Source of the DNA: a virus
Length of the DNA stretch: 30,901 nt
Direction: 5' to 3' (one strand)
IMG/VR virus record: IMGVR_UViG_3300008117_000324
Location: 1 to 30,901 of that record
Shown here: piece after piece, positions 4,028-27,263 of the stretch
How the letters are laid out: the number at the start of each line of letters is the position of its first letter
How positions within the stretch are numbered: position 1 is the first letter of the stretch
Program-made: the position numbers and the translations under genes
The notes under the pieces: model-generated
Told to the model about the DNA's origin: nothing
What the model saw: the letters and a program-made list of their open reading frames with translations, nothing else
Databases searched by the model: none

Positions 4028-4414
4028 ATGATAAAGCTTACAAAGGGAAATACTGAAACTGTTTACTTAACTTTGACTGAGAAGCAATCCATTTTGGATG
4101 CTAATTTTTTATGTGTATTTCAAAGCAGATCAACAAATGAGAAAGTTAAATTCGTATTGGTTAATTCTGCTGATCAAAGCAATTTTCCTGACAGGTATAA
4201 TGAGTTTGATATTGTTGTTAATACGTATTTTGCCAATAGGGAAGAGGGTTGGTATACTTATAAAATATATGAGCAGGCGAGTTCTTCCAATTTAATAGAG
4301 GCAAATGCCGGGGCTGTAGTGGAGACTGGTTTAATGTTTTTAAGTGATGGCGAAGATGTAACAACGACAAAATATAACAATCCAACAACTTACAAAGTAT
4401 ATGATGCGGAATAG
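4028..4414 (+). CDS. Hypothetical head/tail protein
   Basis: A 128-residue protein starting MIKLTKGNTETVYLTLTEKQ and ending TTTKYNNPTTYKVYDAE. I chose 4028 over an upstream GTG-type start because the terminator at 3977-4008 lies between them. The composition is beta-rich with no membrane segment. It overlaps the start of the portal gene by 14 bases, so translation is probably coupled. I do not recognise a named family; the context between tail-tube-like and portal genes suggests a small virion component. Confidence 0.7.
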   Translation: MIKLTKGNTETVYLTLTEKQSILDANFLCVFQSRSTNEKVKFVLVNSADQSNFPDRYNEFDIVVNTYFANREEGWYTYKIYEQASSSNLIEANAGAVVETGLMFLSDGEDVTTTKYNNPTTYKVYDAE

Positions 4415-23884: not shown

Positions 23885-24438
23885 GTTTACCAATACAGGA
23901 TACAATGATCAGCGAAGATCTGTTTTTGAAAACGGAACTTGATGCCGGTATACATCATGACAATGAAGCTTTTGTACATCTTTGTCATGCAACGGCTCAA
24001 GAGGTCAAAGGCTTAGATATTAAAACTGTAATGGACTACGGATGTGGAACAGGTGTTTATTCTTATGCTTTCATTAACGAAGGCTTTGACGTTGTAGCAT
24101 GGGAAAAGTTTAAAGCACATAAAGATTATTTATCCGAAAAATTGCCACAAATTAAGATAATAGACAAGCCTATCACTACCGATTTAATGTTATTTATCGA
24201 AGTGGCAGAACACATGACCGATAAAGAACTGGATAAGTTATTTAAAAGTATATCTCCAAAGTACATACTTTTTTCATCAACAAGCGAACGGACAGCGTGG
24301 GACTTAGCATGGGGGCATATCAATGTCAAAGAACAGAATGAATGGGTTACATTCTTTGAAAGTAAAGGATATAAGTTAGTGAAAGATATTAAAGTGCCGA
24401 CAGAGTGGTCAAAATTATTTCAATATGCCAACAGTTAA
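23881..24438 (+). CDS. Class I SAM-dependent methyltransferase
   Basis: A 185-residue protein. Residues about 50-62 carry SAM-binding motif I (VMDYGCGTGVYSYAF). An acidic residue ends the second strand (VVAWEKF), LMLFIEVAEHM follows as motif IV, and YILFSSTSERTAWD as a later strand. The family acts on small molecules, proteins or RNA; no DNA-type catalytic motif is seen. The closing GHINVKEQNEWVTFFESKGY pattern is usual for phage copies placed beside ParB-like genes. The substrate is unknown. Confidence 0.75.
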   Translation: MSLPIQDTMISEDLFLKTELDAGIHHDNEAFVHLCHATAQEVKGLDIKTVMDYGCGTGVYSYAFINEGFDVVAWEKFKAHKDYLSEKLPQIKIIDKPITTDLMLFIEVAEHMTDKELDKLFKSISPKYILFSSTSERTAWDLAWGHINVKEQNEWVTFFESKGYKLVKDIKVPTEWSKLFQYANS

Positions 24439-25030
24439 GATAAACCAAATTAAACCTAATCCTAAGAATCCACGAACGATTAAGGATGAACGTTTTGATA
24501 AACTTAAGAAAAGCATTCAGGATTTCCCGGATATGCTTAACAAACGCCCGCTGGTTTGCTTTACCGATACCGACGGCAAATTTGTTGTATTGGGTGGTAA
24601 TATGCGACTCAAAGCAGCGAAGGATTTAGGATTGAAAGAATTACCCATAATCCTTGCCGATGAATGGACTGAAGAACAAAAGGCGGAGTTTCTTATCAAA
24701 GATAACGTCGGCTTCGGTGAGTGGGATTGGAACGAATTAAATACCGATTGGGATACTGAACAGCTGGAGGGGTGGGGGTTGGAGGTGCCGGGGTTTAATA
24801 TGAATGCCGATGGTTTAGGAACTGATTTTACTTTGCCTGGTGGAGATAAAGCACCATTTCAGCAAATGACTTTTACTTTGGCAGATGAACAGGCGGAGCA
24901 GATTAAAAATGCTATTTCGGATATAAAGGAAACGCAAGAGTATAAGTATGCTGAAACAATGGGCAACGAGAACTCAAACGGAAACGCTTTATATTTAATT
25001 ATCATGCAATGGGTAGAGCAAAAGAAATAA
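24425..25030 (+). CDS. ParB/Srx-fold nuclease-like protein
   Basis: A 201-residue protein. Residues 1-90 match the ParB N-terminal domain: KINQIKPNPKNPRTIKDERF, LVCFTDTDGKFVVLGGNMRL and KAAKDLGLKELPI. Gly-Gly-Asn-Met-Arg is the nucleotide-binding motif. The C-terminal part (QMTFTLADEQAEQIKNAISD, MGNENSNGNALYLIIMQW) is an extension seen in phage members. Phage ParB-like proteins of this type accompany DNA modification and terminase genes and may be CTPases or nucleases. It overlaps neighbours by 14 and 22 bases, so coupling to the Mom-like gene is likely. Confidence 0.8.
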   Translation: MPTVKINQIKPNPKNPRTIKDERFDKLKKSIQDFPDMLNKRPLVCFTDTDGKFVVLGGNMRLKAAKDLGLKELPIILADEWTEEQKAEFLIKDNVGFGEWDWNELNTDWDTEQLEGWGLEVPGFNMNADGLGTDFTLPGGDKAPFQQMTFTLADEQAEQIKNAISDIKETQEYKYAETMGNENSNGNALYLIIMQWVEQKK

Positions 25031-25854
25031 TAGTAAAAGTTATTCCAGCAAAAATTGCAAATGAATTTGTAAAGCTTCATCATTATTCAGGTAAAGTTGT
25101 TCCAAATAGTAAACTTCATTTTGGATGTTTTTTAGATGATAAATTGCACGGAGTATTAAGCTATGGTTCAAGTTTAGATAAAAGTAAAACTATTGGGTTA
25201 GTTGAAAATACAAATTGGAACGATTATTTAGAATTAAATAGAATGGCATTTGATAATTATTTGCCAAAATATTCAGAAAGTAGATGTATTTCAATTTGTA
25301 TTAAATTAATCAAAAAAAATGCTCCAAATATAAAATGGATTTTGTCTTATTCTGATGGATGTGATTGTGGAGATGGAACAATTTATAGAGCAAGTGGATT
25401 TTATTTAACTTTAATTAAAGAAAATAGTGATTTATTTTTACTTCCAAATGGTAAAAAAATACACTCAATGACTATAAAATCAAGTAAAACATTAATGAAT
25501 AAATATGGTAACTGGAAAAAATATCTTGATACTGAACATATTGGATGGAAAAAAATAGTTGGTTTCCAATTAAGATATATTTATTTAATAGATAAAACTT
25601 GTAAAATAACAGTTCCAATTTTACCATTTAGCAAAATAGATGAAATGGGTGCAGGTATGTATAAAGGAAAAAAAGTAACTTTGAAAGAGCGTAAACATGC
25701 GGCAATAGCACAAGGTAGTGCGCCCGGCTTCCAGTCGGGAGATGGCGTTCGGAGCGACCTTGCCGCTCAATTAAACAGCGAAGTAACAGCGAAGCGGAAA
25801 CCCGAACGGGCGACCTCGCAAGATTGTATCTTTGCTGAAGGATCAGGGTTATAA
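25009..25854 (+). CDS. Mom-like DNA modification protein
   Basis: A 281-residue protein. Residues 1-225 resemble the Mu Mom family (GNAT-related, adds a bulky group to adenine in phage DNA): HHYSG (24-28), FGCFLDDKLHGVLSYG, ELNRMAFD (75-82), SRCISICIKLIKK, ILSYSDG (111-117) and GTIYRASGFYL (123-133). In Mu the modification blocks host restriction. The region up to base 25698 is AT-rich and has protein-like sequence throughout. The final 51 residues (from about 231) are read from a GC-rich tRNA-like element and its downstream spacer and do not look like a domain. The annotated end may therefore be a read-through. Strong neighbours are the ParB-like gene before it and terminase after it. Confidence 0.75.
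   Translation: MGRAKEIIVKVIPAKIANEFVKLHHYSGKVVPNSKLHFGCFLDDKLHGVLSYGSSLDKSKTIGLVENTNWNDYLELNRMAFDNYLPKYSESRCISICIKLIKKNAPNIKWILSYSDGCDCGDGTIYRASGFYLTLIKENSDLFLLPNGKKIHSMTIKSSKTLMNKYGNWKKYLDTEHIGWKKIVGFQLRYIYLIDKTCKITVPILPFSKIDEMGAGMYKGKKVTLKERKHAAIAQGSAPGFQSGDGVRSDLAAQLNSEVTAKRKPERATSQDCIFAEGSGL
25699..25767 (+). tRNA. tRNA-Gly(UCC)-like cloverleaf inside the Mom-like gene
   Basis: The segment folds as a tRNA. The 7-bp acceptor stem pairs GCGGCAA (25699-25705) with TTGCCGC (25760-25766). Bases 8-9 are TA. The D stem GCAC/GTGC (25708-25711, 25718-25721) encloses a short 6-nt loop containing GG. The 5-bp anticodon stem (25723-25727 with 25735-25739) carries loop CTTCCAG, which gives U33, anticodon UCC and A37. 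The T arm is poor: loop TTCGGAG at 25748-25754 has TTC but no A58, and the stem has a bulge. No CCA is encoded. The acceptor, D and anticodon arms are convincing; the T arm suggests a degenerate tRNA or a tRNA mimic. It lies in the Mom reading frame. Confidence 0.5.
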
Positions 25855-26125
25855 ACTTTCAGAGATTAACGATACTTTGATGGCTTTGCTGTCAATGGAT
25901 ATGAACGAGCTGAAGGAGGCTTTTGAGAATCCGAAGGCAACGGTATTGGAGAAGGCGGTGGCGGGTGCCATCAGGAAGTCGATCGAAAAGGGCAGCCTTT
26001 ACAATATCGAAACGATAATAACGAGGGCTATGGGTAAGCCGAAGGAGCAGACCGAACATTCAGGCGGTCAAACATTTAAAGTAATTTATGAGCGACCAAC
26101 TGATCAAACTGGTACAACCGACTAA
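25832..26125 (+). CDS. Terminase small subunit-like protein
   Basis: A 97-residue product if TTG 25832 is used (KDQGYKLSEINDTLMALLSM, then KATVLEKAVAGAIRKSIEKG and IITRAMGKPKEQTEHSG). The frame is open further upstream, from 25787, and there encodes SGNPNGRPRKIVSLL, a motif I recognise from DUF5681/TerS-type N-termini. No ATG lies in that stretch and a stop (TAA, 25784-25786) precedes it. The protein therefore either begins at a non-ATG codon or is joined to the Mom frame. TerS binds the packaging site and hands DNA to the large subunit, whose gene follows with 38 bases of overlap. Confidence 0.7.
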   Translation: MLKDQGYKLSEINDTLMALLSMDMNELKEAFENPKATVLEKAVAGAIRKSIEKGSLYNIETIITRAMGKPKEQTEHSGGQTFKVIYERPTDQTGTTD

Positions 26126-27263
26126 GCCACAACAAAAAGTTATTGCAGAGGCAAAGCGGTTTAATGTGTTGGACTGCGGTCGAAGATGGGGAAAGTCAAA
26201 GCTGGCAATGAACATAATGTCTGAGAACGCATTAGAAGGCTTTCCTTCGGCTTATTTTGCTCCGACGTACAAACTATTAGAAGGAACTTATAAAGAGGTT
26301 TTAACGCGCTTAGAACCTGCAATAAAGCGAAAGCACGATAATCAGTTTATAGAATTATACACAGGTGGTAATATAGATTTTTGGTCATTAGAAAATCCCC
26401 TTGCAGGTCGATCACGCAAATACAAAGTTGCAATAATAGACGAAGCGGCATTTAACCGTAACCTTTGGCAATCATGGACTGAGGCAATACGGCCAACGCT
26501 AACCGATCTAAAAGGTAGTGCGTGGTTTATGTCTACTCCAAAAGGAAAGAATGACTTTTATAAGCTATGGATGCGAGGTCAAACTGGGGAACCGGACTGG
26601 ATGAGTTGGCAGATGCCGACAATTACCAATCCTTTTATCGATGCTGCTGAGATTGAGGCAGCAAGGCGCGACCTTCCTGAATTAGCATTTAAACAAGAAT
26701 ACCTTGCTGAATTTAATGATAACGTAGCCAACCCATTCGGCTTAGATTACATCCGTATCTGCACAGGGCAAATGTCAAATGAGCCTGCCGTATGTTATGG
26801 GATCGACTTAGCTAAGTCATTCGACTGGACTGTCATAATAGGTTTGGATCGGTTCGGTAATGTTTGTCACTTCGATAGATTTCAACGGCCCTGGAATGAA
26901 ACAAAAGAGATCATCCGTAGGTTGCCACGTGCCGCGATAAAGATAGATAGCACAGGGGTTGGCGATCCGATTACAGAGGACATACAAAGGGATAGAGGCG
27001 ATGTGCATTCGTTTAAATACACATCCACATCAAAGCAGCAATTAATGGAAGGGTTAGCGGCTGCCATCCATCAAAGGCGGGTAATCTTTCCAGAAGGAGT
27101 TATAAAAGCAGAATTGGAATCATTCGAATATCAGATGACAGGAACCGGAGTAAAGTATACAGCACCTCCCGGACTGCATGATGATTGTGTAAATGCCTTA
27201 GCTTTGGCATGGTCAATGTACGTTCAGGATTCAGGCGGTCAAGTTAAATATAGTTTTTTATGA
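26088..27263 (+). CDS. terL: Terminase large subunit
   Basis: A 391-residue packaging motor. The ATPase domain has Walker A GRRWGKS (31-37), Walker B VAIIDEA (114-120) and STPKGKND (coupling motif, about 149-156). The RNase H-like nuclease domain has acidic residues in GIDLAKSFDWT (238-248), IDSTGVGD (286-293) and HDD (364-366). Both domains are complete, so it should cut and translocate DNA. The overlap with the TerS frame and an ATGA junction to the tail chaperone gene indicate one operon. Confidence 0.95.
   Translation: MSDQLIKLVQPTKPQQKVIAEAKRFNVLDCGRRWGKSKLAMNIMSENALEGFPSAYFAPTYKLLEGTYKEVLTRLEPAIKRKHDNQFIELYTGGNIDFWSLENPLAGRSRKYKVAIIDEAAFNRNLWQSWTEAIRPTLTDLKGSAWFMSTPKGKNDFYKLWMRGQTGEPDWMSWQMPTITNPFIDAAEIEAARRDLPELAFKQEYLAEFNDNVANPFGLDYIRICTGQMSNEPAVCYGIDLAKSFDWTVIIGLDRFGNVCHFDRFQRPWNETKEIIRRLPRAAIKIDSTGVGDPITEDIQRDRGDVHSFKYTSTSKQQLMEGLAAAIHQRRVIFPEGVIKAELESFEYQMTGTGVKYTAPPGLHDDCVNALALAWSMYVQDSGGQVKYSFL

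Follow-up and report, generated by a model that had tools for sequence, protein, structure and literature searches.

The window analysed here, 30,901 bases long, comes from an IMG/VR virus record of 34,393 bases (IMGVR_UViG_3300008117_000324) and holds, at the 3' end of a gene for a Mom DNA-modification protein, a tRNA-like element at 25699-25768 on the + strand; we use the name TLE for this tRNA-like element beside mom. We are nearly certain that the TLE is a genuine RNA gene associated with Mom: it specifies a structured RNA, accompanies mom, keeps the identity bases for glycine, and does not keep several features required for translation. Judged by these sequence features, the TLE is probably a non-proteinogenic tRNA-Gly dedicated to Mom, which it would serve as the glycyl donor.

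Structure and covariation of the TLE

ARAGORN calls a single tRNA in the window, a tRNA-Gly (tcc) on the + strand at 25699-25768, and the element scores 39.3 bits against the Rfam tRNA model RF00005 (gathering score 29; E = 4e-5 for the whole window). A first-pass annotation of this DNA had seen a tRNA-Gly(UCC)-like cloverleaf inside the Mom reading frame, and both parts of that description hold: the two programs and the covariation presented below support the cloverleaf, and the frame is open to 25854. On the + strand, the acceptor stem (25699-25705 paired with 25760-25766) has 7 bp, the D stem (25708-25711 with 25718-25721) 4 bp and the anticodon stem (25723-25727 with 25735-25739) 5 bp; the anticodon loop (25728-25734) presents the anticodon UCC at 25730-25732, where C35 and C36 belong to the glycine identity set (PMC9976931). 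The T arm (25744-25759) has a 4-bp stem of the form GGCG/CG-A-CC, in which a bulged A at 25757 replaces the 51-63 pair. The mature element ends with U73 at 25767, followed by an encoded C74 at 25768. The window copy itself keeps U33, a 7-nt anticodon loop and the GG (G18-G19) of the D loop. Energy minimisation folds the 70 nt into the cloverleaf, at -30.7 kcal/mol; this fold energy is weak support by itself (z = -2.1 relative to shuffled sequences, 7 of 200 of which fold equally well), so covariation was used instead to exclude chance.

No relatives of the window were found by DNA similarity among INPHARED phages, and relatives were therefore gathered by protein search. The first set (L001-L080) consists of the best 80 IMG/VR loci with a relative of the window Mom, 67-93% identical to it. 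On reading these loci, a tRNA-like element was seen downstream of mom in nearly all, on either strand; a first scripted scan recovered it in 75 of the 80, and a covariance model, R1, in all 80 (E-values 4e-20 to 7e-5). R1 was built from 16 TLE copies, copies with a 5-bp T stem being excluded from the seeds because MAFFT misaligned their T arm; the window TLE scores 79.3 bits against it. When the 57 distinct TLEs of the first set were parsed, they showed the 7-bp acceptor, 4-bp D and 5-bp anticodon stems, together with a T arm whose stem has 4 or 5 bp and, on its 3' side, an extra A two bases ahead of the acceptor stem. This A is present in 57/57 copies, although the parser could choose no bulge, and the T arm, which the first-pass annotation had called degenerate, is thus better described as a conserved, non-canonical arm.

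When the 16 seeds are aligned by MAFFT from sequence alone, 320/320 cells are paired, and 15 of the 20 pairs change on both sides, the kind of compensatory change that the first-pass annotation had proposed as a check. Not one of 500 shuffles reaches any of five covariation measures, and sliding the structure along the seed alignment lowers pairing to 36-55%. For 85 further copies, in an alignment fitted to R1, 99.0% of 1617 cells are paired and double changes occur in 18 of the 20 pairs. The two T-stem pairs outside the bulge covary (from G-C to A-U), in favour of the bulged register; neither T-stem register contains the 51-63 pair. All four stems covary across the relatives, and the TLE is under structural selection. 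Standard tools recover relatives of the TLE only in part, the Rfam tRNA model finding 7 of 18 and ARAGORN 12 of 40.

Linkage to Mom and placement on either strand

As a control, we used 80 relatives of the neighbouring terminase large subunit gene (26088-27263, + strand; PHROG terminase large subunit, 4e-39). R1 matches six of these loci, five of them with Mom and the sixth (L130) cut by the contig start, while 74 of the 80 have neither Mom nor a TLE; the TLE is thus found in 5/5 control loci with Mom and in 0/74 without (Fisher p = 4e-8). In the reverse test, IMG/VR was searched with a DNA pattern of the T arm that is blind to Mom. This fetched at least 120 contigs (L182-L301), and 115 of the 120 listed carry a Mom gene by tblastn; among the matches listed, nearly all contigs with Mom have the TLE at the mom 3' end. 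R1 was applied to 80 of the 120, including all five without Mom. True TLEs lie at the contig ends of L246, L284 and L297, where the remaining bases encode mom tails; L234 and L292 fit the pattern and are not TLEs. In L297 the TLE (4260-4327) stands beside a Mom tail that is cut by the contig end and resembles Mu Mom (ending KPYPK), and some Mu-like Moms may therefore have a TLE too.

A second, more distant set of 80 loci was gathered from the Mom of Psychrobacter phage Y8A, and R1 matches 69 of them. Among the 11 negative loci, L303-L305, L317 and L321 have a more degenerate copy, the contig of L376 ends early, and five are without a TLE. Most prophage Mom loci from Bacteroidota and Clostridia carry the TLE according to R1, L083/L084 being exceptions; so does a distant second Mom clade (L099 type) that is about 30% identical to the window Mom. 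Two other tRNAs near Mom genes were set aside: the one in Methylophilales phage Melnitz-3 (L176) is a tRNA-Trp by ARAGORN and was not counted, and the one upstream of Mom in L083/L084 is a tRNA-Gln. The TLE is tied almost obligately to the window's type of Mom, and the pairing is far broader than a curiosity of one gene.

The orientation of the TLE relative to mom is not fixed. In the first set it lies on the mom strand in 50 of 80 loci and antisense in 30; on a tree of 126 Mom proteins we count about 33 switches between same-strand and antisense placement, at least 20 of them forced by supported branches, and presence or absence of the TLE changes five times on the same tree. We examined 19 antisense TLEs with differing upstream sequence against the Bacteroidota promoter consensus TAnnTTTG/TTTG (PMC2483708). 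A -7 box TAnnTTYG starts 12-20 nt upstream in 18 of the 19 (2.4 expected), with TTTG exactly 19 nt before the box in 9 of these 18, and a hairpin followed by a T-run terminator stands directly 3' of the TLE in 18 of the 19 (0.2 expected), embedded in the mom 3' end. Placement on both strands, together with an own promoter and terminator in the antisense copies, argues that the TLE is a separate small-RNA gene.

Same-strand copies look different. None of 37 has the hairpin and T-run terminator; TAnnTTYG occurs in mom codons upstream of 18 of the 37 (0.4 expected), and no -33 TTG box was found for this set. The window belongs here, with TAACTTTG at 25676-25683 (+ strand) inside the mom codons V-T-L as a possible Bacteroidota -7 box for the TLE and no -33 TTTG box to go with it. 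Because these boxes lie in codons constrained by the protein, they are weaker evidence of a promoter, and the RNA of same-strand TLEs could come from co-transcription with mom.

Glycine identity and translation features

The counts that follow rest on the 57 first-set TLEs and on 46 further copies, taken only from loci fetched via Mom or terminase; contigs L182-L301 were excluded, since the search pattern had the bulged A and the CGCTC end built in. Glycine identity in bacteria resides in G1-C72, C2-G71, C35, C36 and U73 (PMC9976931), and these bases are nearly invariant in both groups; the 46 further, Mom-fetched TLEs have G1 in 46, C2 in 46, C35 in 45, C36 in 44 and U73 in 44. Several bases occur at position 34 (U, A and C, rarely G), and the anticodon remains one for glycine wherever C35-C36 is present. 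The 3' end is preserved in a corresponding manner: U73-CCA is encoded in 17 of 41 aligned second-set TLEs, while first-set TLEs mostly keep U73-C74 and copies of the Bacteroidota type end in it like the host tRNAs of two Bacteroidota genomes, so that in either form the end is kept fit for CCA and charging. A stricter rule, that the TLE encodes CCA exactly when the host tRNAs do, was tried on six genomes; it roughly fits Bacteroidota and three clostridial genomes, L087 does not fit, and the rule lends weak support only.

Features that serve translation are treated differently. U33 is needed for decoding; it is present in 41 of 57 first-set and 19 of 46 further TLEs. U8 is present in 34 of 57 and 25 of 46, the anticodon loop has 8 nt in 25 of the 57, and the D-loop GG is absent in 24 of the 57 and kept in 33. 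The bulged A, by comparison, is found in 57/57 and 45/46. The 7/4/5-bp cloverleaf stems are of the elongator type in the window and in nearly all relatives, the D arm being absent in some. The family departs from an elongator tRNA-Gly in lacking the regular 5-bp T stem with its 51-63 pair, and relatives depart from it also in U33 and the 7-nt loop.

Psychrobacter phage Y8A has two unannotated TLEs between a Mom-like gene and the terminase gene (L171:3662-3802), in which no D arm is recognisable; they have the acceptor stem, C35-C36, the bulged A and an encoded U73-CCA. The Mom-like gene beside them is annotated as hypothetical; the Y8A paper reports no tRNA genes and names a different ORF as Mom (PMC10434257), and the phage may have two Moms. 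In clostridial prophages, whose TLEs are more divergent than those of phages, L086, L087, L088 and L089 have two mom genes in tandem, and L088 has two TLEs in succession.

Possible role as glycyl donor for Mom

The mom gene (25009-25854, + strand) encodes a protein of GNAT fold with matches to Pfam PF25680 Mom (7e-51) and PHROG Mom-like (3e-47), and its sole clear solved relative is phage Mu Mom (PDB 8bv8; sequence profile 1.6e-70, fold 3e-18). Like Mu Mom, a methylcarbamoylase, the window Mom is thus a PF25680 member and has the conserved core. Its residue S91, invariant in the alignment, corresponds to Mu S124 when Mu Mom is numbered over 241 residues; the title of 8bv8 names an inactive mutant, S124A, although numbering in that entry may differ. 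Mom is known to produce alpha-N-(purin-6-yl)glycinamide (Swinton 1983, as cited in PMC3874153). In the open literature searched, preprints and subscription journals lying outside the search, we found no identified glycine donor for Mom and no link between Mom and a tRNA or glycyl-tRNA.

We suggest, with somewhat better than even confidence, that Mom uses Gly-tRNA rather than a coenzyme A (CoA) thioester to make adenine glycinamide, and that the virus encodes its own non-translating donor tRNA for this purpose. Host glycyl-tRNA synthetase (GlyRS) would charge the TLE, and the bulged T stem would hold the charged TLE away from EF-Tu; Mom, with its GNAT fold, would then move the glycyl group from Gly-TLE to adenine N6 in phage DNA. 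A plausible chemical route, which we infer from the structures of substrate and product, would begin with attack of N6 on the glycyl ester to give N6-glycyl-adenine by acyl transfer, after which a Smiles-type shift, the free glycyl amine attacking C6 via a five-membered ring, would leave N6-CH2-CO-NH2. The end product would be N6-(carbamoylmethyl)adenine (adenine glycinamide), the known Mom product, and the modified adenine would block host restriction. Charging, escape from EF-Tu, binding by Mom and use as donor are steps to which the sequence features only point.

Several observations weigh against this proposal. A few Moms inside the TLE clade lack a TLE (L083/L084, L319, L323, L335, L346, L377); the TLE is found in 0 of 32 Mu-type Mom loci, and in neither Mu nor most other Mom phages searched whole. 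The Mom family as a whole consequently needs none, and since Mu Mom works without it, host Gly-tRNA must serve if the mechanism is shared; Mu-type Moms would then draw on host Gly-tRNA-Gly. Apart from Mu Mom, the closest structural matches are acetyltransferases that depend on CoA, and the donor suggested in print is an acyl-CoA, for instance glycyl-CoA (PMC7824862). Production of glycinamide by the Mom of the window phage is assumed on the ground of homology to Mu Mom. T-loop bases are retained in many TLE copies, so some canonical tRNA contacts remain, and clostridial TLEs deviate, with a bulged U in L086, a regular T stem in L088 and one L088 copy with the anticodon loop AUC.

Known systems offer partial parallels. 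The Staphylococcus non-proteinogenic tRNA-Gly(UCC), a peptidoglycan donor for FemXAB, keeps glycine identity as the TLE does; three cell-wall tRNA-Gly of S. aureus have lost the pairs 49-65 and 51-63 as well as G18-G19 (PMC9976931, PMC4052509). In both cases the EF-Tu contacts of the T stem (51-63 region) appear to be broken, and the RNA is tied to a particular enzyme, a transferase using charged tRNA in Staphylococcus and Mom here. The likeness is less clear for G18-G19, which many TLEs have lost (24 of the 57) and others, the window copy included, retain. The TLE differs in being phage-encoded and linked to a DNA-modifying enzyme, in the way the T stem is broken (a bulged A in place of A-U pairs), and in the degeneracy of position 33 and the D arm. 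The TacT toxin is a GNAT enzyme acting on Gly-tRNA-Gly, which it reads through U73 and G71 (PMC9976931); both bases are also nearly invariant in the TLE, and the GNAT fold is common to TacT and Mom. TacT acetylates the glycine on the tRNA, while Mom would transfer the glycyl group itself to DNA.

The anticodon UCC, the glycine identity bases and detection in the window by ARAGORN and Rfam would also suit an ordinary phage tRNA-Gly(UCC) that supplements the host tRNA for GGA/GGG codons. We regard this as improbable, because the TLE goes with mom and sister terminase loci that have no mom lack it, because U33 and U8 are unconserved, 8-nt loops frequent (25/57), the 51-63 pair replaced by the bulged A and the D arm sometimes absent, and because most relatives escape the standard tools. 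A regulatory or scaffold RNA deserves more weight, though we still consider it unlikely: uncharged TLE would bind Mom or its mRNA, or sense charged tRNA-Gly, and so control a toxic enzyme. The constant position at the mom 3' end, the terminator of antisense TLEs within that end and the tight regulation of Mu mom (PMC6483171) are consistent with it, but the glycine identity bases are the best-kept part of the TLE, an aminoacylation-ready 3' end would be superfluous for a scaffold, and the element functions from either strand. It is known that phage tRNAs can counter anticodon nucleases, and a decoy against host anti-phage tRNA nucleases would adjoin another anti-defence gene, Mom itself having an anti-restriction function; confinement to mom neighbours would be unexpected for a decoy, however, and position 33 and the loop length vary, so that there is little to recommend this explanation.

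The first-pass annotation had proposed that the element mimics a tRNA to control packaging or the translation of the gene that follows, or else that it is a scar left by fusion of a tRNA to mom, and the location of the window TLE between the mom and terminase genes, inside the Mom frame, could suggest either. Both are very improbable and are contradicted by the data: the element is antisense to mom in 30 of 80 loci, has its own promoter and terminator in the antisense copies examined, follows mom and not terminase, and is maintained by structural selection. The coding overlap is incidental, since the mom stop of same-strand relatives varies in position, lying before the TLE in 7, inside it in 29 and after it in 14. 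The tRNA-like structures of plant viruses are viral RNA and aminoacylatable in known cases. They are cis-acting 3' ends of RNA virus genomes, whereas the TLE is a separate small-RNA gene of a double-stranded DNA phage, and the fixed orientation expected of a cis-acting structure is at odds with the repeated switches of strand. tRNA genes are also common integrase attachment sites, but that the TLE is kept as such a site or its remnant is hardly credible given its late-region location, the RNA covariation, the orientation switches and the tie to mom; for the single TLE phage whose gene table was examined, no integrase lies beside the TLE. We thus return to the dedicated glycyl-donor tRNA as the reading we favour.

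As for the surroundings, a gene with a ParB N-terminal domain (24425-25030, + strand; PF02195, 3e-8) lies upstream of mom, while Mu differs in having com upstream of mom and no TLE. The conserved Mom protein ends at about 25689; the frame continues through the TLE to 25854, and this C-terminal extension is not conserved among relatives. A small terminase frame at 25797-26125 is without a start codon. Compared with the sibling L059, about 50 bases are absent from the window where this gene begins, between short direct repeats, either by mutation or by misassembly, and intact copies are present in relatives; with the start region lost, the mom frame extends to 25854. The G+C content is 25% in the mom gene (25009-25690), 53% in the TLE region and 36% in the window, and the low value of the mom coding part hints at a recent transfer of that part.

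The TLEs are a family of phage tRNA genes largely missed by standard tRNA finders, as in Y8A. The Mom product has been known since 1983, and a tRNA-Gly gene tied to mom in many phages points to a charged tRNA as the donor. If this is true, it would be a case of tRNA-dependent DNA modification that answers the question of where Mom's glycine comes from, and it would extend the use of aminoacyl-tRNA to DNA modification and the evasion of restriction.
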